This document shows positions 39,332-59,698 of a DNA stretch of 64,000 bases, piece by piece. The first letter of the stretch is position 1; every line of letters begins with the position of its first letter. The DNA is taken from positions 756,501-820,500 of the forward strand of contig NZ_CP081844.1 of assembly GCF_019803445.1 (NCBI RefSeq). Direction: 5' to 3'. The notes beneath the pieces were generated by a model. It made no database searches. It saw nothing but the letters and a program-made list of their open reading frames with translations, and was not told the origin of the DNA. Source of the stretch: Caenibius sp. WL. Its GTDB lineage: Bacteria > Pseudomonadota > Alphaproteobacteria > Sphingomonadales > Sphingomonadaceae. A program made the position numbers and the translations under genes.

Positions 39332-40858
39332 ATGAAATGGATATATCTCATGCCTGCCCTGCTGGCTTCGGCATCCTGCAGCCCTTCGCCCGATGAACTG
39401 CTGACCAAAGCGAAAGAGGCTTATGCCGCCCACGACTATGCCGTGGCCCGGCTGCATCTGGCGGAGGCGGCTGAGGGAGCCCCTGGCAATCGCGAGATAT
39501 CGCTCTTGCGCGCGAAGACAGCGTTGGCGTTGGGGGATGGCGAAGGGGCCAGTATCGCGCTTGCGACGCTGGCGGCCGGAAAGCCCCCGCAGGGGGAGTT
39601 GGCCGAACTGGCGGCGGAGGCCGCGCTTCTGCGCCAGACCCCGGCCCAAGCGAGGCAATTCGTTGCCGCCAGCCAGTCTGCTGAAGCCTTCCGGTTGCGC
39701 GCGCTTGCCTTCCTGCAAGAACGCAATCTCGATGGGGCGCGGGAGCAGTTCCGGCAGGCAGTGGCTGCGGGCGGCAATGCGCGCGCCTTTGCTGACTATG
39801 CCCGGTTCCAGCTTCTCGAAGGGGATATCGGCGCGGCGCTGGACATGAGCAATCGCGCGTTCAAGGCTGCGCCCGATGGGCTGGATTCGCTATTGGTCGG
39901 CGGGCAGGTGGCTGCGGTGCGGGGCGATCTCGGACTTGCGCTCAAGCGCTATGAGCAGGCGGCGAAAAGCTACCCCACCAGTGTTGCGGCCAAGATCGGT
40001 CAGGCGGGTATTCTTGGCGATCTGGGGCGAACCGCTGAAATGGAAACGCAGCTTGCCGAACTGACCAAAGCCGGTGTCAGAAACCCCGAATTGACTTATC
40101 TTCAGGTGCGCGCCGCCGCCGCGCGCAAGGACTGGGGCAAAGTGCGCACGCTGATGCAGGCGGCCGAAGCAGATTTGCCGCGTTATGACCGCGCCCGGCT
40201 GCTCTATGGCGAAGCCTTGCTTCATCTGGGGCAGGTGGAGCAGGCAATCGCGCAGATCGGACCGATCGCGCGGGTGCAACCCGGCAACCGGATGGCACAG
40301 AGATTGCTGGCGGAAGCGCAGTTGGCAGCGGGCGATGCAAAGGGGGCGTTTGCCACTTTCCGCCCGGTGGCCAAGAGCGTCGAAGCGCGGCCCGAAGAAT
40401 TGCAGCTGATGGCGAAGATTGCCACGGCCGCCGGGGATGCATCCGCGGAAGAATATCGAAAGCGTGCTTCGCAGCCCGCGGTCCGGGCGCTCGCAGCCGA
40501 TCTGGCCGAGGCGGACAGCGCCATGCGCCAGGGCAACTGGGCGAAGGCGGTGGTTGCTTACGATCGGATACTCGGCAACACCGATGGCCGGAATGTCGTG
40601 GTGCTTAACAATGCCGCCTATGCCCATCTGATGCTGGGCAACCATGACAAGGCTTTGGGCTTCGCCAAGCGTGCGGTGGAACAGGCGCCCGACAACCCTT
40701 CGGTGCTCGACACGATGGGCTGGGCGACATTCAAGGCTGGGAAGAATCCGGCTGAAGCGCAGCGTTTTCTGCGCAAGGCGGCGGAAATCGCGCCTCAGAA
40801 CCGGACGATCGGGGCGCACCTTTCCGAAGTCGAGCGCGCCCTCAAGAATCGTGGTTAG
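39332..40858 (+). CDS. TPR-repeat protein, exported, possible lipoprotein
   Basis: 508 aa. The N-terminal export signal MKWIYLMPALLASASCSP ends with a cysteine at residue 16; the -3 Ser makes the lipobox imperfect. The rest is tandem tetratricopeptide helices (LLTKAKEAYAAHDYAVARLH, AVVAYDRILGNTDGRNVVVL, AYAHLMLGNHDKALGFAKRA). It is a shorter relative in style of the TPR lipoprotein PrsT found with PEP-CTERM/exosortase systems. The convergent neighbour is a PEP-CTERM protein, which supports that link; no exosortase is in the window. Confidence 0.8.
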   Translation: MKWIYLMPALLASASCSPSPDELLTKAKEAYAAHDYAVARLHLAEAAEGAPGNREISLLRAKTALALGDGEGASIALATLAAGKPPQGELAELAAEAALLRQTPAQARQFVAASQSAEAFRLRALAFLQERNLDGAREQFRQAVAAGGNARAFADYARFQLLEGDIGAALDMSNRAFKAAPDGLDSLLVGGQVAAVRGDLGLALKRYEQAAKSYPTSVAAKIGQAGILGDLGRTAEMETQLAELTKAGVRNPELTYLQVRAAAARKDWGKVRTLMQAAEADLPRYDRARLLYGEALLHLGQVEQAIAQIGPIARVQPGNRMAQRLLAEAQLAAGDAKGAFATFRPVAKSVEARPEELQLMAKIATAAGDASAEEYRKRASQPAVRALAADLAEADSAMRQGNWAKAVVAYDRILGNTDGRNVVVLNNAAYAHLMLGNHDKALGFAKRAVEQAPDNPSVLDTMGWATFKAGKNPAEAQRFLRKAAEIAPQNRTIGAHLSEVERALKNRG

Positions 40859-41571
40859 GCGGCAGCCGTCGCCTTGCGCTTGCGCCGGGTCATCAGACCG
40901 AGAGCGATGAGCCCGCCACCGAGGAGGCCGAGCACGCCCGGTTCCGGCACTTCGCCGCCCGAGCTGGAGGAACTGGTCGAGCTGGTCAGGCTGCCGATGC
41001 CGCTGGCCGAGGACACATTGCCTGCGCCCGAGACCGACTGGTAACGCACGTAGAAATCACCCAGCGTGACGTTGGACAAGGCGTTGGCGAACGTGAGGAT
41101 GAATGTCCCCGCACCGGTCAGGCCATCGGCGATGCCACCGCCGCCGCCGCCTGCGCAAGATCCGGTCGAGGCGTCCTTGAAGCACACGTCGATCGCGCCA
41201 ATTCCGTTGGGGTAGCTGCTGCCCACCGTGGTATAGGCGAACGCACCGGTGGAGGAAGCCCCCGTGATATTCGGATCGGTGTTGAAACCGAACGATGAAA
41301 TCCGCGAATTGACCGGGTCGCTGGTGGTGTTGGTGACGGAATAATCGAAGGTATACTGGTTCCCCGAAATCCCTGTCAGAGTGAACGTGGTCGACGCCGT
41401 CAACCCGTCGATCGACGGCGAGTTGGCGCCGGAGAACCCGTTGTAGTTGAACGTGTACGAATTGCCGATCGAGTTGGAATCGAGTGTGATCGTATCGGCA
41501 TAGGCCGGCGCGCTGGCGATGAGCGCGCTCGCAGCGAGGGACGATAACAGAAGCTTGGCACGTAAATTCAT
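40855..41571 (-). CDS. PEP-CTERM sorting-domain protein (cistern-like family)
   Basis: 238 aa from the ATG at 41571 (GGGAGG upstream). Signal peptide MNLRAKLLLSSLAASALIAS … AYA. The middle is Thr/Ser/Gly-rich beta sequence with CFKDASTGSCAGGGGGG, two cysteines as in the family I know as cistern PEP-CTERM proteins. The C-terminus is EVPEPGVLGLLGGG followed by a hydrophobic stretch and TRRKRK, the complete PEP-CTERM signal recognised by exosortase. Probably surface or matrix located. Its stop overlaps the convergent TPR stop by 3 nt. Confidence 0.88.
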   Translation of the reverse strand: MNLRAKLLLSSLAASALIASAPAYADTITLDSNSIGNSYTFNYNGFSGANSPSIDGLTASTTFTLTGISGNQYTFDYSVTNTTSDPVNSRISSFGFNTDPNITGASSTGAFAYTTVGSSYPNGIGAIDVCFKDASTGSCAGGGGGGIADGLTGAGTFILTFANALSNVTLGDFYVRYQSVSGAGNVSSASGIGSLTSSTSSSSSGGEVPEPGVLGLLGGGLIALGLMTRRKRKATAAA

Positions 41572-42764
41572 AACGACCTCCCAGAAGTTATCTGTCTTAA
41601 AGCAACCTTCGTGCCAATTGCGATTTTCAGCCATTTCGGCTCAAATGGCGGCTTTTCTACGTACTGATGTGTAAAATATTGCGACACATGCCGCGACAAC
41701 GAAACCTCGTTGCGCCCCCTCTGAGCGGAGCCGGGGGGACGCTTATTACGAGATGGGGAGAGGTTCGGCTGCAAGTGCCGGATCGTTCCGCATCTGCGAG
41801 GTTGAACTTACCCTCTCCCCTCGACGACTGTCGGCTTTGGGAGCACTGGTTCTAAAGCATCCGCCAGGCTACAAATCATCAGCTTATCAAAGGTAACTTA
41901 TCGCCTGCCCATTATGCGCAGCGGAAAATCCGATCATCGATCAGCACCCTCCTCCAACACGATCGTCTATCAGATTTCAGTGGCGAGCCGGATGTTTGGT
42001 TTGCTTCCAACGAGCGGTCCAGTTGGACGAGAGATACTCGGTCGCGCTCATGAAGGTTCGGATATACGTCTCATGAGGGTAAGAATGTGTCCCGTTTAGG
42101 GAAGAACAGGCATCATAACTCTCTACGAACTGCCTTGGTGAGGGCGGGAAAAACTGCCTCGGACTGACCGTTATATGGCTGAAACGCGGATGGTCAGGTG
42201 CTGCTTCTTCATCGTGACGTGGGATATTTCTAATATTTTCAGGCAATTAAAAGGATTGGAAAATTTTGAAGCGGTAGATCGTCACGGTATAAATCGCGGA
42301 ATAAAATTAATTGCCATGCTAACTTTCTGCCGTTCCCTGTTTCGAGTTGAAACACAATTTAACGATACAGGAGAAGCAAGAAATGTATTATTGAAAATAT
42401 CATATAGTTAATAGGAATTAAAATTCTAAAGATAGGCAATTTAAATTTCAAGATATGTAATTTTTACGCATGTCAAGCGATTCGAAGGTGAAGATCGGGG
42501 TAAATCCGTATAGTTTCGTGTTTGTGTGAGTAGTTAACGAACTTGTAATGAAGAAGGCTCCCTGCTCTCTTATGCGCATCAAGTTCTGCGAGTCGTGAAA
42601 AGACAGCAGATTGTACTTGGATTGAAAGTGCATTGGGCTTGGGAGTCAGTGCTGACATAGCACTGTGACACGATGAACGATGTGTTCGGCCGTTGTTGTC
42701 CAGTCCTACGCCCCGCTTGAATTGGGTGCTTCACCCAGTTTCGAAATTTTTAGGGGCAGGCAAG
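41572..42764. other. Long AT-rich intergenic region upstream of the adhesin gene
   Basis: About 1.2 kb without a credible gene. From 42180 to 42660 the sequence is far more AT-rich than any other part of the window (for example 42380-42470). Such islands often hold promoters for large surface-protein genes and binding sites for xenogeneic silencers such as MucR/Ros. No specific operator could be fixed. A direct repeat AACTGCCT occurs at about 42127 and 42151. Confidence 0.5.
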
Positions 42765-45700
42765 ATGGACAGCAACAAGTTCACTGTAACGGATGCTCAG
42801 AGCGCTCTGGACCAAGCTGCGGTGCAGTTGGCGGCCGATGGGCAGCATCTTGCGGGGGCAGGCAAGGGGAGCGGCCGGGCTGCTGTCGTCCTGACGGTAT
42901 CTGCCGACAATATCGTTGTCCTGCCTGCTGGCGTTTCCCTCGATGATATGCGTGCGATTGGGCGCGATCTTGTGGTGGATGGCCCGGATGGGGTGCGGTA
43001 TGTCATCCCCGGCGGGGCTGTCGATGTGCCGCAAATCGTGGTCGACGGGGTAACCATTCCGCCTTTGAACCTGGCGGCGTTGCTGATCGGTAACGAACCG
43101 CAGCCGGCGGCGGGGCGCCCGCAGAGTTCCGGCGGCAACTTCGCCGATCCCACCGGCCCGATCCAGGATGCTTATGCACTGGGCGATCTGCTGCCCTACA
43201 CGGAATTGCAGTTCCCGAGACCGGAGCATGAAGAACTCTTTTTGCCCATCGATCGCGAGCCGACGACTGAGGTAAATTCGCTCGTCCAACTCGATGACGA
43301 TGTCCTCCTGGGCGGCAATCCCGGCGGTGTCGGCGATGATGCGGACAGCGTGAATGCCACCGGCATTCTATCGGGTTCCGGCGGTGACGGCGATCTGACT
43401 TTCGCGCTGACCGGGGCTGTCCTGCCGGCGGATGGCGGTTTCGCGATTGCTTCGAACAATGGCCAGACGCTGGTCATCAGCCAGAATGGCGTAAATGTGC
43501 TGCAAGTGGTCGTCAATCCCGACACCGGCGCCTACACGATCACGCAACTGGCGCCGATCCAGCACCCGCAGGGGCAGGATGAAAACAATCTCGATGTGAT
43601 CGTCACTTATACCGTCACCGATGCCGACGGCGACAGCGCGGCTGGCACGCTGCCGATCAATATCGACGATGATACGCCTGTGGCCACCGATGATGCGGCG
43701 AATCTTATCGCAGGAGGGCCGTCATCCGTGACCTTGGATGTCGATACGAACGATGCCCCTGGCGCGGATGGGACGGGGAGTCGTGTCTTCGACACTCTCG
43801 TGGGAGTCTACGGCACTCTGACGCTGAATGCGGATGGGACTCAGACTTATACGCTGAATGCCACTGGCCAAGTTGCGATCAATGCCTTGGCTGACGGAGC
43901 AACGCTGCAGGATGTGTTCCCCTATACGCTGATCGATGGCGATGGTGACGGCGACAGGGCAGTCCTGACCGTGACGCTGACCGGTGTGAATGATCCGCCT
44001 GTGGTGACGGTCGATCCGGGCAACCCGGTCGGCGCGAATGATATGGTTCTGGAATCGGGTCTTCCGACGGGCTCGACGGCGGGCACGGGGCATATTGCCA
44101 CGGGCACGTTCACGCTGTCGGATCCCGATGGTCTGGCGACATTGCAGAGCGTGACGTTCAATGGCGGCAGCCCGGTTGCGATCGGCAGCCTGGTGGGCAC
44201 GGTGATCCACGGCGCGTACGGCGATCTGGAGATTACCGGCTACAATGCGGGAACCGGGGTTGCGACCTACACCTATACGCTGACTTCGGCGACGGTGGAC
44301 GGCCCGGGGACCGAGAGCGATGCGTTCACGCTGACGGTGTCTGACGGGGCGGCGTCTTCGGCTCCGGCGACGATCACGATTGAGATCGTCGATGATGTTC
44401 CGCATGCGGTGAACGACGGTCCGTATGTGGTGACGGAAGATGCGGCGCCGAATGTCGTGTCGGGCAATGTGCTGACGAACGACCTGCACCCCAACGGTCA
44501 GCCGGGCGCGGACGGCAAGGTTCCGGCAGTGACCTGGAGCGCGGGCGATGCGGCGGCGATCGCGGCGCTGAACACGTACGGCACGCTGGTGCAGAACGGT
44601 GACGGGACGTGGAGCTACACGCTGGACAACAGCCGTGCGGCGACGCAGGCGCTGGGCGCGGGGTTCAGCCAGGACTACGTGCTGCATTACACGATGCAGG
44701 ACGGGGACAACGATCCTGCGGATGCGACGCTGACGATCACGGTCAAGGGGGCGGACGACAGCGCTTCGGTGGTGACGTCGGCCACGCTGCTGAACCCGGA
44801 CAATACGGTCTACGAAGCGGGCCTGAACCCGAGTGGCTCGGAAGCGGCGACGAGCAAGGAAACGGACACGGGCAGCTTCACGGTCTCGGCCACGGACGGG
44901 ATCAGCACGGTTGTGATCGGCGGGACGTCGTTCACGCTGGCGCAGGTCATGGCGTTCGGGACGACCAACGGAGTGGTCGATACGGGCGAAGGGACGCTGA
45001 CGCTGACGGGCTATTCGGGGACGGGTTCCTCGGGGACGATCAGCTACAGCTACACGCTGAAAGCGACGATCGACAACGACACCAAGCCGGGTGCGACCGG
45101 TGACCACTTCGACGACAGCGTCACGCTGACGGTGAACGGGGCGGGCGGCACGAGCGCCAGCGACACGCTGGTGGTGCGGATCGTCGACGATGTGCCGCAT
45201 GCGGTGAACGATGGTCCGTATGTGGTGACGGAAGATGCGGCGCCGAATGTCGTGTCGGGCAATGTGCTGACGAACGACCTGCACCCCAACGGTCAGCCGG
45301 GCGCGGACGGCAAGGTTCCGGCAGTGACCTGGAGCGCGGGCGATGCGGCGGCGATCGCGGCGCTGAACACGTACGGCACGCTGGTGCAGAACGGTGACGG
45401 GACGTGGAGCTACACGCTGGACAACAGCCGTGCGGCGACGCAGGCGCTGGGCGCGGGGTTCAGCCAGGACTACGTGCTGCATTACACGATGCAGGACGGG
45501 GACAACGATCCTGCGGATGCGACGCTGACGATCACGGTCAAGGGGGCGGACGACAGCGCTTCGGTGGTGACGTCGGCCACGCTGCTGAACCCGGACAATA
45601 CGGTCTACGAAGCGGGCCTGAACCCGAGTGGCTCGGAAGCGGCGACGAGCAAGGAAACGGACACGGGCAGCTTCACGGTCTCGGCCACGGACGGGATCAG

Positions 45701-48700
45701 CACGGTTGTGATCGGCGGGACGTCGTTCACGCTGGCGCAGGTCATGGCGTTCGGGACGACCAACGGAGTGGTCGATACGGGCGAAGGGACGCTGACGCTG
45801 ACGGGCTATTCGGGGACGGGTTCCTCGGGGACGATCAGCTACAGCTACACGCTGAAAGCGACGATCGACAACGACACCAAGCCGGGTGCGACCGGTGACC
45901 ACTTCGACGACAGCGTCACGCTGACGGTGAACGGGGCGGGCGGCACGAGCGCCAGCGACACGCTGGTGGTGCGGATCGTCGACGATGTTCCGCATGCGGT
46001 GAACGACGGTCCGTATGTGGTGACGGAAGATGCGGCGCCGAATGTCGTGTCGGGCAATGTGCTGACGAACGACCTGCACCCCAACGGTCAGCCGGGCGCG
46101 GACGGCAAGGTTCCGGCAGTGACCTGGAGCGCGGGCGATGCGGCGGCGATCGCGGCGCTGAACACGTACGGCACGCTGGTGCAGAACGGTGACGGGACGT
46201 GGAGCTACACGCTGGACAACAGCCGTGCGGCGACGCAGGCGCTGGGCGCGGGGTTCAGCCAGGACTACGTGCTGCATTACACGATGCAGGACGGGGACAA
46301 CGATCCTGCGGATGCGACGCTGACGATCACGGTCAAGGGGGCGGACGACAGCGCTTCGGTGGTGACGTCGGCCACGCTGCTGAACCCGGACAATACGGTC
46401 TACGAAGCGGGCCTGAACCCGAGTGGCTCGGAAGCGGCGACGAGCAAGGAAACGGACACGGGCAGCTTCACGGTCTCGGCCACGGACGGGATCAGCACGG
46501 TTGTGATCGGCGGGACGTCGTTCACGCTGGCGCAGGTCATGGCGTTCGGGACGACCAACGGAGTGGTCGATACGGGCGAAGGGACGCTGACGCTGACGGG
46601 CTATTCGGGGACGGGTTCCTCGGGGACGATCAGCTACAGCTACACGCTGAAAGCGACGATCGACAACGACACCAAGCCGGGTGCGACCGGTGACCACTTC
46701 GACGACAGCGTCACGCTGACGGTGAACGGGGCGGGCGGCACGAGCGCCAGCGACACGCTGGTGGTGCGGATCGTCGACGATGTTCCGCATGCGGTGAACG
46801 ACGGTCCGTATGTGGTGACGGAAGATGCGGCGCCGAATGTCGTGTCGGGCAATGTGCTGACGAACGACCTGCACCCCAACGGTCAGCCGGGCGCGGACGG
46901 CAAGGTTCCGGCAGTGACCTGGAGCGCGGGCGATGCGGCGGCGATCGCGGCGCTGAACACGTACGGCACGCTGGTGCAGAACGGTGACGGGACGTGGAGC
47001 TACACGCTGGACAACAGCCGTGCGGCGACGCAGGCGCTGGGCGCGGGGTTCAGCCAGGACTACGTGCTGCATTACACGATGCAGGACGGGGACAACGATC
47101 CTGCGGATGCGACGCTGACGATCACGGTCAAGGGGGCGGACGACAGCGCTTCGGTGGTGACGTCGGCCACGCTGCTGAACCCGGACAATACGGTCTACGA
47201 AGCGGGCCTGAACCCGAGTGGCTCGGAAGCGGCGACGAGCAAGGAAACGGACACGGGCAGCTTCACGGTCTCGGCCACGGACGGGATCAGCACGGTTGTG
47301 ATCGGCGGGACGTCGTTCACGCTGGCGCAGGTCATGGCGTTCGGGACGACCAACGGAGTGGTCGATACGGGCGAAGGGACGCTGACGCTGACGGGCTATT
47401 CGGGGACGGGTTCCTCGGGGACGATCAGCTACAGCTACACGCTGAAAGCGACGATCGACAACGACACCAAGCCGGGTGCGACCGGTGACCACTTCGACGA
47501 CAGCGTCACGCTGACGGTGAACGGGGCGGGCGGCACGAGCGCCAGCGACACGCTGGTGGTGCGGATCGTCGACGATGTTCCGCATGCGGTGAACGACGGT
47601 CCGTATGTGGTGACGGAAGATGCGGCGCCGAATGTCGTGTCGGGCAATGTGCTGACGAACGACCTGCACCCCAACGGTCAGCCGGGCGCGGACGGCAAGG
47701 TTCCGGCAGTGACCTGGAGCGCGGGCGATGCGGCGGCGATCGCGGCGCTGAACACGTACGGCACGCTGGTGCAGAACGGTGACGGGACGTGGAGCTACAC
47801 GCTGGACAACAGCCGTGCGGCGACGCAGGCGCTGGGCGCGGGGTTCAGCCAGGACTACGTGCTGCATTACACGATGCAGGACGGGGACAACGATCCTGCG
47901 GATGCGACGCTGACGATCACGGTCAAGGGGGCGGACGACAGCGCTTCGGTGGTGACGTCGGCCACGCTGCTGAACCCGGACAATACGGTCTACGAAGCGG
48001 GCCTGAACCCGAGTGGCTCGGAAGCGGCGACGAGCAAGGAAACGGACACGGGCAGCTTCACGGTCTCGGCCACGGACGGGATCAGCACGGTTGTGATCGG
48101 CGGGACGTCGTTCACGCTGGCGCAGGTCATGGCGTTCGGGACGACCAACGGAGTGGTCGATACGGGCGAAGGGACGCTGACGCTGACGGGCTATTCGGGG
48201 ACGGGTTCCTCGGGGACGATCAGCTACAGCTACACGCTGAAAGCGACGATCGACAACGACACCAAGCCGGGTGCGACCGGTGACCACTTCGACGACAGCG
48301 TCACGCTGACGGTGAACGGGGCGGGCGGCACGAGCGCCAGCGACACGCTGGTGGTGCGGATCGTCGACGATGTTCCGCATGCGGTGAACGACGGTCCGTA
48401 TGTGGTGACGGAAGATGCGGCGCCGAATGTCGTGTCGGGCAATGTGCTGACGAACGACCTGCACCCCAACGGTCAGCCGGGCGCGGACGGCAAGGTTCCG
48501 GCAGTGACCTGGAGCGCGGGCGATGCGGCGGCGATCGCGGCGCTGAACACGTACGGCACGCTGGTGCAGAACGGTGACGGGACGTGGAGCTACACGCTGG
48601 ACAACAGCCGTGCGGCGACGCAGGCGCTGGGCGCGGGGTTCAGCCAGGACTACGTGCTGCATTACACGATGCAGGACGGGGACAACGATCCTGCGGATGC

Positions 48701-51700
48701 GACGCTGACGATCACGGTCAAGGGGGCGGACGACAGCGCTTCGGTGGTGACGTCGGCCACGCTGCTGAACCCGGACAATACGGTCTACGAAGCGGGCCTG
48801 AACCCGAGTGGCTCGGAAGCGGCGACGAGCAAGGAAACGGACACGGGCAGCTTCACGGTCTCGGCCACGGACGGGATCAGCACGGTTGTGATCGGCGGGA
48901 CGTCGTTCACGCTGGCGCAGGTCATGGCGTTCGGGACGACCAACGGAGTGGTCGATACGGGCGAAGGGACGCTGACGCTGACGGGCTATTCGGGGACGGG
49001 TTCCTCGGGGACGATCAGCTACAGCTACACGCTGAAAGCGACGATCGACAACGACACCAAGCCGGGTGCGACCGGTGACCACTTCGACGACAGCGTCACG
49101 CTGACGGTGAACGGGGCGGGCGGCACGAGCGCCAGCGACACGCTGGTGGTGCGGATCGTCGACGATGTGCCGCATGCGGTGAACGATGGTCCGTATGTGG
49201 TGACGGAAGATGCGGCGCCGAATGTCGTGTCGGGCAATGTGCTGACGAACGACCTGCACCCCAACGGTCAGCCGGGCGCGGACGGCAAGGTTCCGGCAGT
49301 GACCTGGAGCGCGGGCGATGCGGCGGCGATCGCGGCGCTGAACACGTACGGCACGCTGGTGCAGAACGGTGACGGGACGTGGAGCTACACGCTGGACAAC
49401 AGCCGTGCGGCGACGCAGGCGCTGGGCGCGGGGTTCAGCCAGGACTACGTGCTGCATTACACGATGCAGGACGGGGACAACGATCCTGCGGATGCGACGC
49501 TGACGATCACGGTCAAGGGGGCGGACGACAGCGCTTCGGTGGTGACGTCGGCCACGCTGCTGAACCCGGACAATACGGTCTACGAAGCGGGCCTGAACCC
49601 GAGTGGCTCGGAAGCGGCGACGAGCAAGGAAACGGACACGGGCAGCTTCACGGTCTCGGCCACGGACGGGATCAGCACGGTTGTGATCGGCGGGACGTCG
49701 TTCACGCTGGCGCAGGTCATGGCGTTCGGGACGACCAACGGAGTGGTCGATACGGGCGAAGGGACGCTGACGCTGACGGGCTATTCGGGGACGGGTTCCT
49801 CGGGGACGATCAGCTACAGCTACACGCTGAAAGCGACGATCGACAACGACACCAAGCCGGGTGCGACCGGTGACCACTTCGACGACAGCGTCACGCTGAC
49901 GGTGAACGGGGCGGGCGGCACGAGCGCCAGCGACACGCTGGTGGTGCGGATCGTCGACGATGTGCCGCATGCGGTGAACGACGGTCCGTATGTGGTGACG
50001 GAAGATGCGGCGCCGAATGTCGTGTCGGGCAATGTGCTGACGAACGACCTGCACCCCAACGGTCAGCCGGGCGCGGACGGCAAGGTTCCGGCAGTGACCT
50101 GGAGCGCGGGCGATGCGGCGGCGATCGCGGCGCTGAACACGTACGGCACGCTGGTGCAGAACGGTGACGGGACGTGGAGCTACACGCTGGACAACAGCCG
50201 TGCGGCGACGCAGGCGCTGGGCGCGGGGTTCAGCCAGGACTACGTGCTGCATTACACGATGCAGGACGGGGACAACGATCCTGCGGATGCGACGCTGACG
50301 ATCACGGTCAAGGGGGCGGACGACAGCGCTTCGGTGGTGACGTCGGCCACGCTGCTGAACCCGGACAATACGGTCTACGAAGCGGGCCTGAACCCGAGTG
50401 GCTCGGAAGCGGCGACGAGCAAGGAAACGGACACGGGCAGCTTCACGGTCTCGGCCACGGACGGGATCAGCACGGTTGTGATCGGCGGGACGTCGTTCAC
50501 GCTGGCGCAGGTCATGGCGTTCGGGACGACCAACGGAGTGGTCGATACGGGCGAAGGGACGCTGACGCTGACGGGCTATTCGGGGACGGGTTCCTCGGGG
50601 ACGATCAGCTACAGCTACACGCTGAAAGCGACGATCGACAACGACACCAAGCCGGGTGCGACCGGTGACCACTTCGACGACAGCGTCACGCTGACGGTGA
50701 ACGGGGCGGGCGGCACGAGCGCCAGCGACACGCTGGTGGTGCGGATCGTCGATGATGTTCCGAGTCTCGGCCCCATTCAGGATGGCACCGCGAACAACAA
50801 TCCTGCATCCACAGTAACGACTGGAACGCTACATCTCGTAGGTGGCGCCGATGGCGTAGGCACAGGGATGGTGATCCAATACGACACGACCAACGTTACC
50901 TCTGGAGGACAGGCGCTCCATACCACGCAGGTTGGGAATGTTCTGTACGCCTACACGGGCAGCGGGGGTATCGGTGGCGATGGCATTCCGACCACGGGTC
51001 TGGTGTTCTTGCTCACGGTTAATCCCGGCACTGACCAATACACATTCGATTTGCGCGCCCCGCTCGATGGAACCGTTACGCCGGTGGAGATCGGTAGCGG
51101 AAGCGCATTCGGATCCGGCCCGAGCAATAGTATCGTTGTTGCCGACGGCGGGCATAATCTTGTTTTTGTGACTGGTTGGAGACCGACTGGCGGCTTTACC
51201 AGCGGGGAGGAAAGCGCCTGGTTGAATGGTGGAACTCCCACCATGAGCCAACAAAGCAATATCAATGGCTCCACCAATGGCTGGGGGCTCGGCAACAACA
51301 ATTTCGATGCGACGCCGCAAGGTTCCGATGGCGGAGAGTTTCTGCGCTTCGATTTTGGAGCGTTGAACGATTATGATGGAGCGGGCGGTTATACACCACC
51401 TGCCGGCCAGACGATTTCGAACGCAACATATGTCAAGTTCTCATTTTTCAACTTTGACGTTGGCGACAAAATCGAATTCGTTGCGCACTATACCGATGGG
51501 ACGACTGAATCTTTTGTCTTTGACAACCCTGCGGATCCACGCCTGGTAACCAATGGGAATGAAAAGATTTTCACGGTTTCGGCCCCGGCAGGGGCGGAGC
51601 TTGCTTGGGTTGACGCCTATGAAGCGGCCGGATCAATCAAGCTCAATCTCAAGGAAATTGGCGTTCGTACAGAAAATGTCGATGCCAATCTCAACTTCAC

Positions 51701-53003
51701 CGTAACGATACCGGATGGTGATAACGATACCGCGCAGGATAGCTTCACAATCCATGTCGCAGATGGACTGACGCCATCCAGTGCGGTTCCCATCGTGCTC
51801 GATCTCGATGGCGACGGTGTCGAGTTCAGTTCGCTGGCTGCCGGGGTGCACCATGATTACAACGGCGACGGACTGCTGGAAGCCACGGCATGGGTCGGTG
51901 CGGACGATGGGATCCTTGCCTTTGACGCCAATGGCGACGGCAAAGTCAGCGGTTCCGGTGAATTCGTGTTCGGTGGCAATGGGCTGACGGATCTTGAGGC
52001 ACTGGCCGCCAACTTCGACAGCAATGGCGACGGCGTGCTGAACGCACAGGACGCCGGGTGGGCCAAATTCGGCGTGTGGCAGGATGCGAACCAGAACGGG
52101 GCCGCCGATGACGGCGAGTTCCATCTGTTGAGCGAACTGGGCATCACCGGGATCACGCTCACGTCCGATGGCAAGGCCTATGCCGCCGCGGATGGTGACG
52201 TGCACGTTTTCGGCACCGGCTCTTATACCAAGAGTGACGGTTCGAGCGGGATGCTGGCCGATGCGGCCTTCGCCACGCGGCAGACCGAAATGGCGGTGAT
52301 TGCCGCCACGGCCGGAGCCGTGCTGGTCGATGCATCGGATGAGACGCCGCTCGTTCCCGGTGCACCGGAACCGGAAGAACCGCAGAACGGCGTGACCGAA
52401 CCCGTGGCTGAAACGCAAAGCATCGCAGGCGAAAACGCGGATGCGCCGCAAGACGCGCCCGCCGCTACTCTGCTGGCGGACAATGCACAGGATACGGCGT
52501 CCGATGCGCCGGAATCCGGCTTCGCTTCGGCGGATGACGATGCGCCCGCGCAAATCGCTGCGGCGGAGGGCAGCGGCGACGATGATGCAGCTTCCGTGGC
52601 CGCGAACGATGACGATGGGGGCGATAGCAGCGCCTTTGCCGATGCCGGCCATGCCGATGCGCACCAGCCGGGCGATGAAGCGCTGATGGACAGTCTGCTG
52701 CTGCTCGCGGCGAACGATACCGGCGAAAAGGCGCCGCCGACGCCGGAAGAAGTGATCGATGCGGTCAAAGGCGCGGTGGATGAAGTCGTCCAGCAGGCGA
52801 GTGTCGATCATCTCCTCGACGGGATGCTCGGCGATGCCGGCCCGCATCCGGCCGCGGCGGAAGCTGGCCATGGCACTGAAACCGCACTGGCCGGGCTGCT
52901 CGATCAGGGAACCGGAGGCAACGCCTTCCTGTTCGCAGGCGCTGACCAGACACCGATCAACGACGATCTCCATGCGATGGCGGCGGCTGCGGCTCAAGCG
53001 TGA
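42765..53003 (+). CDS. Giant type I secreted repeat adhesin, LapA/BapA-like
   Basis: 3412 aa from the ATG at 42765 (MDSNKFTVTD). Residues 1-130: Gly/Val-rich retention-module-like domain ending in PQPAAGRPQ (PAAG at 114-117, a candidate LapG site). Residues about 130-540: VCBS-like and T1SS-143-like domains (VNDPPVVTVDPG…). Residues 541-2660: eight repeats of 265 aa, each one VCBS-like domain (VNDGPYVVTEDAAPN…) plus one T1SS-143-like domain. Residues 2661-3005: unique beta-rich domain. Then the Ca-binding segment VLDLDGDGVEF, DANGDGKVSG and DSNGDGVLNAQD, an acidic Ala/Asp linker, and a C-terminal secretion signal region (INDDLHAMAAAAAQA). It has no Sec signal. Exported by the T1SS genes that follow and expected to mediate biofilm adhesion. 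Confidence 0.93.
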   Translation: MDSNKFTVTDAQSALDQAAVQLAADGQHLAGAGKGSGRAAVVLTVSADNIVVLPAGVSLDDMRAIGRDLVVDGPDGVRYVIPGGAVDVPQIVVDGVTIPPLNLAALLIGNEPQPAAGRPQSSGGNFADPTGPIQDAYALGDLLPYTELQFPRPEHEELFLPIDREPTTEVNSLVQLDDDVLLGGNPGGVGDDADSVNATGILSGSGGDGDLTFALTGAVLPADGGFAIASNNGQTLVISQNGVNVLQVVVNPDTGAYTITQLAPIQHPQGQDENNLDVIVTYTVTDADGDSAAGTLPINIDDDTPVATDDAANLIAGGPSSVTLDVDTNDAPGADGTGSRVFDTLVGVYGTLTLNADGTQTYTLNATGQVAINALADGATLQDVFPYTLIDGDGDGDRAVLTVTLTGVNDPPVVTVDPGNPVGANDMVLESGLPTGSTAGTGHIATGTFTLSDPDGLATLQSVTFNGGSPVAIGSLVGTVIHGAYGDLEITGYNAGTGVATYTYTLTSATVDGPGTESDAFTLTVSDGAASSAPATITIEIVDDVPHAVNDGPYVVTEDAAPNVVSGNVLTNDLHPNGQPGADGKVPAVTWSAGDAAAIAALNTYGTLVQNGDGTWSYTLDNSRAATQALGAGFSQDYVLHYTMQDGDNDPADATLTITVKGADDSASVVTSATLLNPDNTVYEAGLNPSGSEAATSKETDTGSFTVSATDGISTVVIGGTSFTLAQVMAFGTTNGVVDTGEGTLTLTGYSGTGSSGTISYSYTLKATIDNDTKPGATGDHFDDSVTLTVNGAGGTSASDTLVVRIVDDVPHAVNDGPYVVTEDAAPNVVSGNVLTNDLHPNGQPGADGKVPAVTWSAGDAAAIAALNTYGTLVQNGDGTWSYTLDNSRAATQALGAGFSQDYVLHYTMQDGDNDPADATLTITVKGADDSASVVTSATLLNPDNTVYEAGLNPSGSEAATSKETDTGSFTVSATDGISTVVIGGTSFTLAQVMAFGTTNGVVDTGEGTLTLTGYSGTGSSGTISYSYTLKATIDNDTKPGATGDHFDDSVTLTVNGAGGTSASDTLVVRIVDDVPHAVNDGPYVVTEDAAPNVVSGNVLTNDLHPNGQPGADGKVPAVTWSAGDAAAIAALNTYGTLVQNGDGTWSYTLDNSRAATQALGAGFSQDYVLHYTMQDGDNDPADATLTITVKGADDSASVVTSATLLNPDNTVYEAGLNPSGSEAATSKETDTGSFTVSATDGISTVVIGGTSFTLAQVMAFGTTNGVVDTGEGTLTLTGYSGTGSSGTISYSYTLKATIDNDTKPGATGDHFDDSVTLTVNGAGGTSASDTLVVRIVDDVPHAVNDGPYVVTEDAAPNVVSGNVLTNDLHPNGQPGADGKVPAVTWSAGDAAAIAALNTYGTLVQNGDGTWSYTLDNSRAATQALGAGFSQDYVLHYTMQDGDNDPADATLTITVKGADDSASVVTSATLLNPDNTVYEAGLNPSGSEAATSKETDTGSFTVSATDGISTVVIGGTSFTLAQVMAFGTTNGVVDTGEGTLTLTGYSGTGSSGTISYSYTLKATIDNDTKPGATGDHFDDSVTLTVNGAGGTSASDTLVVRIVDDVPHAVNDGPYVVTEDAAPNVVSGNVLTNDLHPNGQPGADGKVPAVTWSAGDAAAIAALNTYGTLVQNGDGTWSYTLDNSRAATQALGAGFSQDYVLHYTMQDGDNDPADATLTITVKGADDSASVVTSATLLNPDNTVYEAGLNPSGSEAATSKETDTGSFTVSATDGISTVVIGGTSFTLAQVMAFGTTNGVVDTGEGTLTLTGYSGTGSSGTISYSYTLKATIDNDTKPGATGDHFDDSVTLTVNGAGGTSASDTLVVRIVDDVPHAVNDGPYVVTEDAAPNVVSGNVLTNDLHPNGQPGADGKVPAVTWSAGDAAAIAALNTYGTLVQNGDGTWSYTLDNSRAATQALGAGFSQDYVLHYTMQDGDNDPADATLTITVKGADDSASVVTSATLLNPDNTVYEAGLNPSGSEAATSKETDTGSFTVSATDGISTVVIGGTSFTLAQVMAFGTTNGVVDTGEGTLTLTGYSGTGSSGTISYSYTLKATIDNDTKPGATGDHFDDSVTLTVNGAGGTSASDTLVVRIVDDVPHAVNDGPYVVTEDAAPNVVSGNVLTNDLHPNGQPGADGKVPAVTWSAGDAAAIAALNTYGTLVQNGDGTWSYTLDNSRAATQALGAGFSQDYVLHYTMQDGDNDPADATLTITVKGADDSASVVTSATLLNPDNTVYEAGLNPSGSEAATSKETDTGSFTVSATDGISTVVIGGTSFTLAQVMAFGTTNGVVDTGEGTLTLTGYSGTGSSGTISYSYTLKATIDNDTKPGATGDHFDDSVTLTVNGAGGTSASDTLVVRIVDDVPHAVNDGPYVVTEDAAPNVVSGNVLTNDLHPNGQPGADGKVPAVTWSAGDAAAIAALNTYGTLVQNGDGTWSYTLDNSRAATQALGAGFSQDYVLHYTMQDGDNDPADATLTITVKGADDSASVVTSATLLNPDNTVYEAGLNPSGSEAATSKETDTGSFTVSATDGISTVVIGGTSFTLAQVMAFGTTNGVVDTGEGTLTLTGYSGTGSSGTISYSYTLKATIDNDTKPGATGDHFDDSVTLTVNGAGGTSASDTLVVRIVDDVPSLGPIQDGTANNNPASTVTTGTLHLVGGADGVGTGMVIQYDTTNVTSGGQALHTTQVGNVLYAYTGSGGIGGDGIPTTGLVFLLTVNPGTDQYTFDLRAPLDGTVTPVEIGSGSAFGSGPSNSIVVADGGHNLVFVTGWRPTGGFTSGEESAWLNGGTPTMSQQSNINGSTNGWGLGNNNFDATPQGSDGGEFLRFDFGALNDYDGAGGYTPPAGQTISNATYVKFSFFNFDVGDKIEFVAHYTDGTTESFVFDNPADPRLVTNGNEKIFTVSAPAGAELAWVDAYEAAGSIKLNLKEIGVRTENVDANLNFTVTIPDGDNDTAQDSFTIHVADGLTPSSAVPIVLDLDGDGVEFSSLAAGVHHDYNGDGLLEATAWVGADDGILAFDANGDGKVSGSGEFVFGGNGLTDLEALAANFDSNGDGVLNAQDAGWAKFGVWQDANQNGAADDGEFHLLSELGITGITLTSDGKAYAAADGDVHVFGTGSYTKSDGSSGMLADAAFATRQTEMAVIAATAGAVLVDASDETPLVPGAPEPEEPQNGVTEPVAETQSIAGENADAPQDAPAATLLADNAQDTASDAPESGFASADDDAPAQIAAAEGSGDDDAASVAANDDDGGDSSAFADAGHADAHQPGDEALMDSLLLLAANDTGEKAPPTPEEVIDAVKGAVDEVVQQASVDHLLDGMLGDAGPHPAAAEAGHGTETALAGLLDQGTGGNAFLFAGADQTPINDDLHAMAAAAAQA
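44385..50744 (+). repeat. Eight tandem 795-bp repeats inside the adhesin gene
   Basis: Unit length 795 bp (265 codons), 8.0 units, 6360 bp, plus a short 18-bp start of a ninth at 50745. Units are identical wherever I compared them except within the first 30 bases: GATGTT versus GATGTGCCG and AACGACGG versus AACGATGG. Copies 2 and 7 carry both variants and copy 8 only the first; all are silent. Both outer borders read GTCGATGATGTTCCG, while internal ones read GTCGACGATGT. Confidence 0.95.
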
Positions 53004-53032: not shown

Positions 53033-53737
53033 ATGAAAGGCAAAGGACACAGGTGGTTGTGGGGAGCGATTGCGGTCCTGGGCGCTGTTCCATCGGTGGC
53101 CATGGCCCAGTCCGCTGGCGCGGATCTGCTGGCGTTGAACGGAGACCAGCTCCGGGGCGAACTGCAGACGCGCTATGACAGTGCTCTCGCCGCAACGACG
53201 GATCGCGCCGTGGTTGCAGCCAACGACACACGATACATTTGGGCTTCGGAAGCGAAAGTCCAATGTGGCATTGCCATAGGCTATATGAAATCGTCGACCA
53301 AGGACGAGACCAGCATCCGCAAATGCGGCGATGCCTATGCGCGTTACAATCAGGCGTCGGCACCGCCGCCGATGGCGGTTGCGCCGCCGAATGCGGCCTG
53401 TGGCAACAAGCTGGCCGGGGTGGTGTTCTTCGATTTCGATTCCGCCATCCCTCCGGCTGAAGCCGGGCAGACGGTCGATGCGGTCGTCAGCGCGGCATCC
53501 CTATGCGCTTGGCGTGGCTTGGCGGTTGCCGGACACACGGACCGGGCAGGCAGCGACGCTTACAACGATGCGCTTTCGCTTCGCAGGGCACAGGCGATTG
53601 CCGACCTGATGCAGGCCAAGGGCATTAATTCCAGCATGGTCACGGTCAGCGCACATGGCGAGGCCGAACCCAGAGTCCCGACCCCCGACGGCGAACGCAA
53701 TCCGCAGAACCGTCGCGTGGAAATCGCAGTGATCTGA
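53033..53737 (+). CDS. OmpA-family outer-membrane/peptidoglycan-binding protein
   Basis: 234 aa. Signal peptide to VAMAQ (residue 26). A helical N-terminal region has two Cys (KVQCGIAIG, IRKCGDAYA). The C-terminal OmpA domain follows: GVVFFDFDSAIPPAEA, GHTDRAGSDAYNDALSLRRA and NPQNRRVEIAV, with the Asp and Arg that bind diaminopimelate. It starts 29 nt after the adhesin stop and 17 nt before tolC, so it is part of the secretion operon. It may anchor the export machine to the wall. Confidence 0.9.
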   Translation: MKGKGHRWLWGAIAVLGAVPSVAMAQSAGADLLALNGDQLRGELQTRYDSALAATTDRAVVAANDTRYIWASEAKVQCGIAIGYMKSSTKDETSIRKCGDAYARYNQASAPPPMAVAPPNAACGNKLAGVVFFDFDSAIPPAEAGQTVDAVVSAASLCAWRGLAVAGHTDRAGSDAYNDALSLRRAQAIADLMQAKGINSSMVTVSAHGEAEPRVPTPDGERNPQNRRVEIAVI

Positions 53738-53754: not shown

Positions 53755-55146
53755 ATGGACAAGAGTAAACTCGTAAGCCTCGCCGCGGCAGCATTGTTGT
53801 GCGGCGTTTCCGCCCCGGCGCTGGGGCAGGCTGTTTCGATGCGCGACGCGATTGCCGTCGCGATGGACTCCAACCCGGATATCATCCAGGCACAGATGAA
53901 CACCGAAGCTATTCAGGCAGAGCGCAAACAGGCCCAGGGCCTGTTTGCCCCGCGCGTGACACTGGATGCTTCGGCCGGTGCGCGGCGTCTGGAAAACACC
54001 ACCCGGCGGAGGCTGGGGATCGCGGACGACTGGCTCTATCCGCTGGAAGCCAGCCTGAATGCGGAATGGGTGGCGGTCGATTTCGGGCGTCGGCGCGGCG
54101 AACTGCTGCGCCAGGCGGCACGGGTCGACGGTGCCTCGTTGCGGGTGCTGGAACGTTCGCAGTTCGTTGCCCTGCAGATTGCGCGGCAATATCTCGACAT
54201 TCTCTTGCAGCAGCGCATCCTGGCGGCTTCGCAGGACAACAGCGCCTTCCATCGCTCGCTGGTGGGGGATTTGTCCGAAGGCGTGCGCCAGGGCTCGATC
54301 AGCATCGCCGATCAGCAACAGGCCGAAGAACGCCTGCAGGCGGCGCTCGTGCGGGAGCAGGAAGCGGCTGAAGCGCTGCGGAACGCCAAGATTTCCCTAC
54401 GGGCGCTGACCGGCCTCGATATTGAGCAGGTTGCTCTTCCGGATGCTCTGACGTCGGCTTTGCCGGCCAACGAGGCGGAAGCCGTCAACCTGGTGCGGAC
54501 GCAGAATCCGAAAGTGCTTGAGGCGGTGGCGGATGTCGATGCCACCAATGCTCTAGTCAAAGCAGCCAAGGGCGACCTCTATCCTGAAATCGGGGTCAAC
54601 GTGCAGGGCCGCGTCGGGGAAGATATCGACGGCTTCAAAGGCAATGCCAACGATGTTCAGGCCCGCGTCTTCCTGCGGTGGGATATCTTCGATGGCGGGA
54701 TCAACCGGGCCAAGGTGCAGGAAATGGTGCGTCGGGCCAGCGAAGCCCGCTATCGCCTGCATCAGGTCGAGCGCGATGCCGAACAGGATGTGCGCACTGC
54801 CTGGAACGCCATGGAAAGCCAGACGGCAATCGTCCGGGCTCTGGAAAAGCAGGGGCACGTAACGGATGACCTGCTGCTGTCCTATCGCAGCCAGTTCAAT
54901 GTGGGGCGGCGTTCGCTGCTCGACGTGCTGGATGCGCAGAACACCCGCTACAACGTGCAGGTTCGTCTGGAAACGTCGCGGTTCTCCCAGATGTTCGCGC
55001 AGTATCAGACGTTGGCCACGACCAATCTCTTCATCGGTGCGCTGAATGTCTCGCCGGGTGCCGGTGCGGGAATGAAGGAGCGTGAACGGTTCCATTATGG
55101 GCCACCCGTTCCCGCGGAACTTTATCGCCGGGTCTATCCCAAATAA
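53755..55146 (+). CDS. TolC-family outer-membrane channel of the type I secretion system
   Basis: 463 aa. Signal peptide MDKSKLVSLAAAALLCGVSA … LGQA, then the duplicated helical/beta-barrel TolC fold: MRDAIAVAMDSNPDIIQAQM near the N-terminus, and ATNALVKAAKGDLYPEIGVN at the start of the second half. FNVGRRSLLDVLDAQN is the typical TolC/LapE helix-end motif. It forms the outer-membrane exit duct for the adhesin with the ABC and HlyD proteins downstream. Confidence 0.93.
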   Translation: MDKSKLVSLAAAALLCGVSAPALGQAVSMRDAIAVAMDSNPDIIQAQMNTEAIQAERKQAQGLFAPRVTLDASAGARRLENTTRRRLGIADDWLYPLEASLNAEWVAVDFGRRRGELLRQAARVDGASLRVLERSQFVALQIARQYLDILLQQRILAASQDNSAFHRSLVGDLSEGVRQGSISIADQQQAEERLQAALVREQEAAEALRNAKISLRALTGLDIEQVALPDALTSALPANEAEAVNLVRTQNPKVLEAVADVDATNALVKAAKGDLYPEIGVNVQGRVGEDIDGFKGNANDVQARVFLRWDIFDGGINRAKVQEMVRRASEARYRLHQVERDAEQDVRTAWNAMESQTAIVRALEKQGHVTDDLLLSYRSQFNVGRRSLLDVLDAQNTRYNVQVRLETSRFSQMFAQYQTLATTNLFIGALNVSPGAGAGMKERERFHYGPPVPAELYRRVYPK

Positions 55147-55195: not shown

Positions 55196-57337
55196 GTGCG
55201 CGACGATGGTTCCATATATGGCGTAGCCCCCGCAGACCCGCTGGAGGCCTGTATTGCCGCGCTTGCCCGGCATTACGGGATGGCGTTCTCGCCGACGCTG
55301 CTGGCGACTGTGCCGAGAAATGGGGAAGGGCGCTTGCCCTTCCACCAGCTCGGACCGGCGCTCGAACTGGTCGGGCTGAACCATGAAACCGTGTCGGGCA
55401 AGAAGCTGTCGCGCCAGCCCGATGGATGGCCGGCGATCGTGACTCTGCGGGATGGCAAGTTCGCCATTGTTTACGAACTGAAGGACGAGGATCTGCTCGT
55501 CTGGCGGCCGGAAACGCAGGAGCAGATGTGGCTGCCTTTCGCATCGGTGGCCGAGGAATTCGCCGGCGGGCTGGTAACGGTCTTCGGCGATCCCAACAGC
55601 ATTGGCGAACGGGTTCTGCCGTGGCACGCGAAAGGGCGTCATCACTGGTTCTGGAGCGAACTGCGCAAGGAACGGGCGGCATTCCGTCCGGTCCTGCTGG
55701 CATCCTTGCTGATCAACCTTCTTGCCCTGTCGATGCCGCTGTTCACGATGAATGTGTATGACCGGGTGTTTCCCAACCGGGCCGTATCGACCCTGTGGGT
55801 TCTGGGCATCGGAGTGCTGCTGTCGTTCGCGCTGGAATTTGCACTGCGCCAGGCGCGGTCCAATGTGGTCGACCAGATCGGACGTCGTCTCGACCTGAAG
55901 CTGTCGCAGAAGATTTTCGGCCGGTTGCTGGCGACCCCGTTGTCTGCCCGTCAGGGTAGCACGGGGGCCTTGGCGGCACGCGTTTCGGAATACGCCACGG
56001 TCCGCGATTTCTTCGGATCGACGACAGTGGTCCTGATGGTCGATCTGGTGTTTCTCGTCCTGTTCGTTGCGGTGATCGCGTTCATTGCCGGATGGCTGGC
56101 CATCGTTCCGTTGACCGCCATTCTGGTGATGGGGCTGATCGGATACCGCTTGCAGGAACAGGTGGTCACGGCGGCGCAAGACGCGCAGGCCGACCACGGT
56201 CTGCAGCAGACCATGCTCGTGGAATCGATCGCGGGCATGGAAACGTTGAAGAGCATGGCAGGTGAAGGCGGCATGATCGGCCGCTGGTATCGTCTTGCGG
56301 AGATCGGCACGCGTTCGCAACAGCGCCTGCGCCACATCAACACGATTGCCGTGGGGCTGGCCGCAACCTGCCAGCAATTGTCCGGTATCGCGTTGGTGAT
56401 CGGTGGTTATTACCTGTTCGATGCTGGGAATATCACGATGGGGGCGATCATCGCGATCGTCATGCTTTCGTCGCGCTCTCTCGGACCGGCCGGGCAACTG
56501 GCTTTCCTGCTGACCCGGGGCCGCCAGGCCCATGAAACGCTGACCAGCATCGAACGGTTGTTCGATGCAGAGGATGAGCGGCGGCAGGGCAGCCGGACCG
56601 TCCCGCCGACCATTCGCTCGGCCTCGATCAAGCTCGAAAACCTGGAATTCCGTTATCCCGACACGTCCTCGTTTGCGCTGGACCGGTTGAATCTCACGAT
56701 CGAACCGGGGGAACGGATCGCCGTGATTGGCCGTGTGGCTTCCGGCAAATCCACCCTGGGGCGTATTCTGTGCGGCCTTTACCAGCCGACCGGCGGTGCG
56801 ATGATGATCGATGGGATCGACAGCTCGCAGTATCGCCCGCACGATATCCGTTCGGAATTCCGCTTCGTCGGGCAGGATGCCAATCTCTTCACCGGTACGA
56901 TCAAGGACAATCTGACGTTCGGGCGGCCGGATCTGCCCGATGCGGCGCTGATCGATGCTCTCAAGACAACCGGGGCGGAGCAGTTCCTTTCCCGTGATGC
57001 GGGCGGGTTCGACCGTCTGGTCGGGGAGCAGGGGCGGCGGCTGTCGGGTGGGCAGCGCTCCTTCCTCGCTCTGGCCCGCGCCTTTGTGACACCCTGCAAG
57101 ATGCTGTTCCTCGATGAGCCGACCGGAGCGATGGACAGCCAGACGGAAAAGCACTTCGTCGATCGTCTTTCGGGCTCGCTGATCCCGGGACAGACGCTGA
57201 TCATCTCCACACACCGTCCGGCCCTGTTCCGGCTGTGCGATCGCCTGATCGTGCTCGATCAGGGGCGGATTGTCGCGGATGGGCCGAAGAATGAAATCAT
57301 TGCTGCGACGGGCAATGCCGAAAGGTTGACCGCATGA
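55196..57337 (+). CDS. Type I secretion ABC transporter/permease (LapB/HlyB-like)
   Basis: 713 aa from a GTG. Residues 1-130 form a C39-like domain in which the catalytic Cys position is occupied by Pro (DPLEACIAAL versus ECGLACL), as in HlyB- and LapB-type exporters that do not cleave the substrate. A six-span permease follows (about 165-420). The ATPase has Walker A GRVASGKST (about 512), signature LSGGQ (about 616), Walker B MLFLDEPTGAMD (about 637) and the H-loop STHRPA. It powers export of the adhesin and overlaps the next gene by 4 nt. Confidence 0.94.
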   Translation: MRDDGSIYGVAPADPLEACIAALARHYGMAFSPTLLATVPRNGEGRLPFHQLGPALELVGLNHETVSGKKLSRQPDGWPAIVTLRDGKFAIVYELKDEDLLVWRPETQEQMWLPFASVAEEFAGGLVTVFGDPNSIGERVLPWHAKGRHHWFWSELRKERAAFRPVLLASLLINLLALSMPLFTMNVYDRVFPNRAVSTLWVLGIGVLLSFALEFALRQARSNVVDQIGRRLDLKLSQKIFGRLLATPLSARQGSTGALAARVSEYATVRDFFGSTTVVLMVDLVFLVLFVAVIAFIAGWLAIVPLTAILVMGLIGYRLQEQVVTAAQDAQADHGLQQTMLVESIAGMETLKSMAGEGGMIGRWYRLAEIGTRSQQRLRHINTIAVGLAATCQQLSGIALVIGGYYLFDAGNITMGAIIAIVMLSSRSLGPAGQLAFLLTRGRQAHETLTSIERLFDAEDERRQGSRTVPPTIRSASIKLENLEFRYPDTSSFALDRLNLTIEPGERIAVIGRVASGKSTLGRILCGLYQPTGGAMMIDGIDSSQYRPHDIRSEFRFVGQDANLFTGTIKDNLTFGRPDLPDAALIDALKTTGAEQFLSRDAGGFDRLVGEQGRRLSGGQRSFLALARAFVTPCKMLFLDEPTGAMDSQTEKHFVDRLSGSLIPGQTLIISTHRPALFRLCDRLIVLDQGRIVADGPKNEIIAATGNAERLTA

Positions 57338-58377
57338 ATACCGCGACCGCCCTTCATCTGCCTGCGACGCGTTCGCCGTCGCGCAGGGCGTGGCGTCGCA
57401 CGGCTTTGCATGTGGGTTATGCACTGTCCTTAGCCTGTGCGCTGGCGCTGGTTGGATCGACCCGGCTGACGCAGGGCGAAGCGAGAGCCGCCGTCGGCAT
57501 GCAGCCGCAGCAGGTTCGGATGCTGGTGGCGATGACCACCGGCGATCAGGGACGTGTGGTCAGCAAGGGGGAAACGGCCCGCGAAAGCAATGCGCTGATC
57601 CCGCTCTCACAATTGCCGGTGGAGAAGCCGGGCAGCCTTTCGGGCATCCGTCCGGGGATCGAAGGCTATGGCACGGCGCTTCGTTGCCTGTCGCAGGCGA
57701 TCTATTACGAAGCCGCGAACGAACCGCTTGCGGGCAAGCGCGCCGTGGCCCAGGTCGTGCTCAACCGGCTCCGCCACCCGGCTTATCCTAATTCGGTGTG
57801 CGGCGTGGTGTACGAAGGCAGCAACCGGGCGGTCTGCCAGTTTAGCTTTACTTGTGACGGTTCGTTGCTACGCGCGCCGGTCGGGCCGCGTTGGCAGGAA
57901 TCGCAGGCAGTAGCCGAAGCGGCTTTGGCCGGGCAGACCGAACCGCGTGTGGGCACGGCAACGCATTATCACGCGGACTACGTCTTGCCGCGCTGGGCAT
58001 TCACGCTGGCGAAGATCGACAAGATCGGCGCGCATATCTTTTACCGGTTCCCTGGAAAATGGGGCCGCGCTGATGCTTTCCGCGATCGGTGGTCCGGCTA
58101 TGAATACATACCGCAGCTCGATTATGCGCGGCTGCGTTCCGCCCTCGATCACCGTACTGGGGATGAAACCGCGGATCTCGCCAATGGCCTGAGTGTCGTG
58201 CCGCATATGTCCGATCGCCATACGGCCACCGATATCGGCGGGCGGATCGATGTGACCAAGCAATGGCGGATGACCATTCCCGATCCCTCGCAGGTCAGCC
58301 AAGGGTATCATGCGGCGGTGACGGCGCAGGATGTCTCACCTAACGCCACCCTGACGAACGAACAGGTGCAGCCGTGA
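57334..58377 (+). CDS. SleB-type cell-wall hydrolase encoded inside the secretion operon
   Basis: 347 aa. One membrane segment (VGYALSLACALALVG) anchors the protein. The Hydrolase_2/SleB domain is LRCLSQAIYYEAANEPLAGK with catalytic Glu126, then AVAQVVLNRLRHPAYPNSVCG, QFSFTCDG and ATHYHADYVLPRWA. It cuts peptidoglycan glycan strands. It overlaps the ABC gene (ATGA) and the HlyD gene (GTGA) by 4 nt each, so the three are made in fixed proportion. A role in opening the wall for the exporter is inferred. Confidence 0.9.
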   Translation: MNTATALHLPATRSPSRRAWRRTALHVGYALSLACALALVGSTRLTQGEARAAVGMQPQQVRMLVAMTTGDQGRVVSKGETARESNALIPLSQLPVEKPGSLSGIRPGIEGYGTALRCLSQAIYYEAANEPLAGKRAVAQVVLNRLRHPAYPNSVCGVVYEGSNRAVCQFSFTCDGSLLRAPVGPRWQESQAVAEAALAGQTEPRVGTATHYHADYVLPRWAFTLAKIDKIGAHIFYRFPGKWGRADAFRDRWSGYEYIPQLDYARLRSALDHRTGDETADLANGLSVVPHMSDRHTATDIGGRIDVTKQWRMTIPDPSQVSQGYHAAVTAQDVSPNATLTNEQVQP

Positions 58378-59684: not shown

Positions 59685-59698
59685 TCAGCGTTCGGTCA
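59671..59698. terminator. 28-bp perfect palindrome over two convergent stop codons
   Basis: Arms TGACCGAACGCTGA / TCAGCGTTCGGTCA pair fully (14 bp, no spacer). It covers the last four codons and stop of the HlyD gene and the stop of the LapG-like gene. A hairpin of about 12 bp with a 4-base loop could form in either transcript; there is no T-run. Probable bidirectional terminator. Confidence 0.55.

Follow-up and report, generated by a model that had tools for sequence, protein, structure and literature searches.

Eight near-identical 795-bp units form the predicted extender array of a giant adhesin in Caenibius sp. WL

Adhesin gene, secretion operon and protease

The 64-kb stretch of Caenibius sp. 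WL DNA analysed here (the window) carries a giant adhesin gene followed by genes of a type I secretion system (T1SS) and a convergent gene for a LapG-like protease (Table 1). The initial annotation had called the gene product an adhesin, and the T1SS operon, the VCBS and Ig-like modules and the protease gene all support that designation. The adhesin frame is open from a TTG at 42693, and its start is placed at the first position given in Table 1, an ATG with a purine-rich AGGGG upstream. Family models recognised no N-terminal retention module in the adhesin. The PAAG motif behind the retention-like region is followed by SSGGNF, and both are conserved at the same place in nearly all family adhesins compared, the Bosea adhesin having AAAG with a longer spacer; judged by its sequence, the PAAG motif may be cleaved by a LapG-type protease. 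At the C-terminus, a search for RTX nonapeptide repeats gave no RTX family match and one isolated GGxGxD-like match.

Against the PDB, the protease matched 4u65 (E=6.7e-14) and 4fgo (E=2.5e-10), both of which we take to be LapG proteins, and at the aligned positions the Caenibius protein has the same Cys, His and Asp residues as the 4u65 chain. A transglutaminase-like cysteine peptidase gene is also found near adhesin and T1SS genes in Bosea, Aminobacter and Ensifer canadensis. The LapD N-terminal domain LapD_MoxY_N (PF16448) had no match over the cut-off in the genome (G000; best 15.0 bits vs a cut-off of 25), in a search that returned about 140 bits in two Pseudomonas genomes. Two BTLCP (LapG-family) genes occur in G000, at C1:816244-816582 and 3128170-3128460. 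Within the secretion operon, the cell wall hydrolase gene separates the gene for the ABC exporter from that for HlyD.

Table 1 Features of the adhesin locus, in window positions.
Feature	Position	Strand	Basis or remark
Cistern-family PEP-CTERM protein gene	40855..41634	-	NF033947, E=1.4e-66; upstream of adhesin
Giant adhesin gene, 3412 aa	42765..53003	+	VCBS (TIGR01965, E=1e-79), Big_9, Cadherin_4, T1SS-143
PAAG motif, residues 114-117, candidate LapG-type cleavage site	43104..43115	+	Behind N-terminal retention-like region
Single left-flank module ending IVDDVP	43680..44402	+	Best congener match is the G003 amplified unit
Array of eight 795-bp units	44385..50744	+	Self-comparison
Outer left linker ATCGTCGATGATGTTCCG	44385..44402	+	Identical to outer right linker
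Variable head of copy 2 (C9 G15 T33)	45180..45212	+	Haplotype equals copy 7, 49155-49187
Outer right linker, 18-bp partial ninth copy	50745..50762	+	Equals first 18 bp of copy 1
Right-flank module and C-terminal region, weak EF-hand-like loops	50763..53003	+	No canonical RTX nonapeptide run
OmpA-family protein	53033..53737	+	Family match
TolC-family outer-membrane channel	53755..55146	+	Family match
Type I secretion ABC permease/ATPase, LssB type	55196..57337	+	TIGR03375, E=1.5e-218, above cut-off
Cell wall hydrolase (Hydrolase_2)	57334..58377	+	Family match
HlyD-type periplasmic adaptor	58374..59684	+	TIGR01843, E=7.9e-104, above cut-off
LapG-like transglutaminase-like cysteine protease (BTLCP)	59696..60652	-	PF06035, E=8.4e-21; convergent

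The array and its borders

The array is tiled by eight units of exactly 795 bp without indels, each encoding 265 residues (a VCBS half and an Ig-like half), 2120 in total, the number first reported. Self-comparison at an offset of 795 gave 0.99–1.0 across the array vs about 0.27 outside it, which bears out the eight repeats and the coordinates first reported for them, the count of eight resting on the assembly; a whole-genome search found these eight unit copies and none elsewhere. Three of the 795 columns vary, at unit positions 9 (variants TCCCCCCC), 15 (TGTTTTGG) and 33 (CTCCCCTC), all third-codon and silent, so that all eight copies encode an identical 265 residues; the silent nature of the changes had been correctly recognised in the initial annotation, and the clustering of variation at the unit head that it described also holds, although the zone covers the first 33 bases and not the first 30. 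At positions 9/15/33 the haplotypes are TTC in copy 1, CGT in copies 2 and 7, CTC in copies 3–6 and CGC in copy 8. Copies 2 and 7 therefore do share their double variant (G15, T33) and are identical, to which we add that G15 is also present in copy 8, and T9 is found in copy 1 alone among the eight full copies.

The probability that three variable sites fall within 25 bp of a circular 795-bp unit is about 0.003 under uniform placement, in a test chosen post hoc. As a general rule, a hotspot at the unit head was rejected as too weak: with linked sites merged and the discovery and Bosea arrays left out, the first 39 bp hold 3 of the 14 events, where about 0.8 would be expected. Position 15 is also variable in the arrays of a congener (G003) and of another family member (G134). 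We likewise rejected as a gene a 2316-aa antisense frame at 43722-50672 (minus strand), which is a by-product of array uniformity, being open because one unit contains no stop in that frame; comparable antisense open frames occur in the Bosea (L038) and G134 (L072) arrays.

A fold model of the unit built from six sequences consists mostly of beta strands at modest confidence (mean pLDDT 65), and its best PDB fold match is 6xi1, the tetra-tandem extender of the Aeromonas hydrophila RTX adhesin (E=4e-9, but with a low TM-score of 0.28), with cadherins next. PDB sequence searches with the unit and the N-terminus gave no useful relative. In extenders such as AhLap, the linkers hold calcium that makes the rod stiffer (PMC7493085), and by analogy the linkers of the 795-bp-unit array may also bind calcium.

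All eight units end in IVDDVP, a DDxP linker. Di Nocera and De Gregorio (2020, PMC7730722) describe DDxP proteins as built from modules that terminate in DDxP, and propose module insertion at an 18-bp target with duplication of the target. The paper gives an 18-bp border consensus, DTYnnnGAYGAYGKnCCV, derived from other species. On the plus strand of the window this consensus has nine matches, which are exactly the nine unit borders; over both strands there are ten matches vs 0.13 expected, the tenth lying on the minus strand at 37853. The inner linkers all carry C9 and both outer linkers T9. Given local codon usage, the chance that two IVDDVP linkers of independent origin agree at all six codons is about 0.007, so common descent of the outer pair is probable. 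Similarly, in G134 the outer linkers carry the same alleles as each other while many inner copies differ, and the Bosea outer pair matches at 17 of 18 positions. The left array edge falls within 0–2 bp of the same linker codon in four arrays (window, Bosea, Aminobacter and G134). In G295 the match to the right-flank module begins at the first residue of that module, with other modules preceding it, and no empty site was seen. These border features are compatible with insertion that duplicated its target, and also with recombination between linkers already in place.

Arrays in relatives and silent-site composition

Uniform arrays of other units were found in related adhesins: 9 × 786 bp with one variable site in Bosea, 16 full units of 777 bp with no variable site in Aminobacter, 12 × 654 bp with 13 variable sites in G134, near-identical 759-bp units in Ensifer CTYH.Ch1, and near-identical 765-bp units with one mosaic copy in G003. 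Uniform arrays are absent from many very long adhesins of the family, and wider searches for the unit type of the window array found few further cases. Unit 2 of the G003 array (L039, reverse strand) contains a lone diverged tract at positions 272–357 in an otherwise uniform copy, a pattern that gene conversion from an edge module would be expected to leave. The adhesins of the window and of its congener G003 share 78% protein identity in their N-terminal part, and the left-flank module of the window shares 72.6% nucleotide identity over 581 bp (62–63% amino acid) with the G003 units, whilst for the Ig half amplified here the nearest matches are those in Panacagrimonas and Bosea (64%). The module amplified in the congener is thus single here and a different module is amplified here; therefore arrays turn over via different modules. 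Length variation between strains, which the initial annotation thought likely for this adhesin, was seen in an Ensifer homologue: adhesins of Ensifer adhaerens M8, E-60 and NER9 (L107, L108, L118), with N-termini 99.3–99.9% identical, are 2641, 3125 and 3609 residues long, and these steps of exactly 484 residues (968 over two) equal one or two 1452-bp blocks; in E. adhaerens Casida A (97% identical N-terminus) the length does not correspond to whole blocks.

Silent-site composition also sets the repeats apart: their GC3 is 0.87, vs 0.66 for the remainder of the gene and 0.71 and 0.64 for the array flanks. In all adhesins retrieved, repeats at least 96% identical were set against the remaining sequence of their gene, giving 15 genes for comparison (window 42765-53003; L010, L012, L038, L039, L067, L072, L076, L086, L087, L108, L109, L112, L113, L114; one of three E. 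adhaerens strains kept). GC3 was higher in the repeats in all 15, AT-rich genes included, with a mean excess of +0.109 after amino-acid correction (Wilcoxon p=6e-5), some of these genes sharing unit types or lineages and so not being fully independent. In 37 adhesins without uniform repeats, the central part, which serves as a position proxy for the repeats, exceeded the rest by +0.023, and the two groups differ (Mann-Whitney p=3.5e-5).

One explanation would be block import of the unit from a donor richer in GC, the uniformity and composition of the unit then reflecting origin and not local recombination. The GC3 step at the array edges fits this, as does the unit being nearer that of Bosea (74.6% nucleotide identity over its length, 63% protein) than that of the congener (67.5%), and PMC7730722 infers module exchange between genera. 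Import should, however, shift GC upwards in some recipients and downwards in others; the uniform direction across genes disfavours import alone as the cause of the GC3 excess, and we consider this explanation rather unlikely, noting that import and later homogenisation are mutually compatible.

The initial annotation had proposed recent expansion or continuing homogenisation. That proposal is supported, and the comparisons favour continuing homogenisation, because comparable uniformity is seen in arrays built from other unit sequences and because the uniform repeats share a silent-site shift that one recent expansion would not give. Divergence between the window and Bosea arrays contrasts with the few variable columns inside each, one in Bosea and three here. 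Had one very recent amplification made eight copies too young to have diverged, no continuing homogenisation would be needed, and there being just three variable sites and the identity of copies 3–6 would be accounted for. Similarly uniform arrays of other units would, however, demand many coincident recent bursts, the C9 inner and T9 outer linkers look as if a variant had spread through the interior, and the GC shift of the repeats also argues against it; we judge this improbable. That the copy number or copy identity is an assembly product is improbable: copies 3–6 form 3180 bp without a distinguishing site, so that short reads could not count them and long reads alone could confirm the count, and such errors have been reported in adhesins (PMC7493085), but the assembly is in two contigs and 99.4% complete, the variants are placed non-randomly in an uninterrupted reading frame, and similar arrays occur in independently assembled complete plasmids.

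The silent-site GC excess is consistent with GC-biased gene conversion, which has reportedly been proposed in bacteria before (PMC4450053). Other candidate causes are that GC-rich modules tend to recombine and expand, that the modules came from GC-rich donors, or that codon selection is amplified by the number of copies. With both outer linkers taken as ancestral, the variant that spread at sites 9 and 15 is an AT-to-GC change; site 33 is not polarisable from the outer linkers. We tentatively suggest, with confidence below even, that bacterial GC-biased gene conversion is naturally recorded in tandem adhesin arrays, in which inter-copy repair would drive silent sites to G/C relative to single-copy parts in GC-rich and AT-rich genomes alike. 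A literature search listed no account of GC-biased gene conversion in adhesin arrays.

Known relatives and a proposed mechanism

The locus shares several properties with DDxP proteins as described in PMC7730722: DDxP module ends, the 18-bp consensus at the nine borders, the long-module length (265 aa), T1SS linkage, a BTLCP gene nearby, head-to-tail arrays, and single modules beside arrays. The paper also reports a DGDGD motif 11–19 aa before the terminal DDxP in all repeats. The amplified unit here differs in having no DGDGD, reading NGAGGTSAS; DADGD is found at the place of DGDGD only in the module ending at residue 305. As the unit is without DGDGD we do not claim strict DDxP membership and use "DDxP-type". 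A further difference is that the congener and this genome amplified different modules, and congener-specific amplification of different modules was not found in the available part of PMC7730722.

As in the LapA/LapG/LapD system, there is a giant adhesin, here predicted to be exported by a T1SS, a LapG-like protease, and an alanine-alanine motif near residue 114; unlike in that system, there is no LapD N-terminal domain over the cut-off, no family-recognised retention module and no RTX repeats. With the MpAFP/MpIBP and AhLap extenders (PMC4083281, PMC7493085) it shares tandem near-identical beta-sandwich domains and, presumably, a calcium-stiffened rod, and the AhLap tetra-tandemer gives the best fold match of the modelled unit; MpAFP, however, has about 120 copies of a 104-residue single-domain unit, compared with eight two-domain 265-residue units here. 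Periscope proteins (PMC8201768) similarly carry long, highly identical tandem domains in a surface protein, with a number expected to vary; among the adhesins studied here, number variation was seen solely in the Ensifer homologue, the window species being represented by one genome.

Starting from what is directly supported (the anatomy, gene neighbourhood, uniformity, linker borders and different amplified modules in relatives), we put at roughly 80% the reading that the array forms the extender stalk in a giant adhesin of the LapA/BapA-like kind, with DDxP-type modular architecture, and is kept uniform by continuing intragenic recombination. The adhesin would be exported by the adjacent type I system and probably retained at the cell surface by its N-terminal region, from where the LapG-like protease could release it. 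Each 265-residue unit would form two beta-sandwich domains joined to the next unit by a DDxP linker, which probably binds calcium and stiffens the rod. The array would have originated at the linkers, by insertion with 18-bp linker duplication or by recombination between two linkers, and grown by unequal exchange, after which continuing intragenic recombination would keep the copies identical.

Known biology explains the array, as the extender array of a type I-secreted adhesin, and the array cleanly illustrates an adhesin architecture already described. It is valuable as a natural experiment, as it retains an outer, non-homogenised linker pair and has a congener in which a different module of the same gene was amplified. 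The composition shift is the part likely to surprise a specialist: should the GC excess persist across a larger survey and prove to stem from repair bias, such arrays would provide a within-gene, within-genome test of GC-biased conversion in bacteria.
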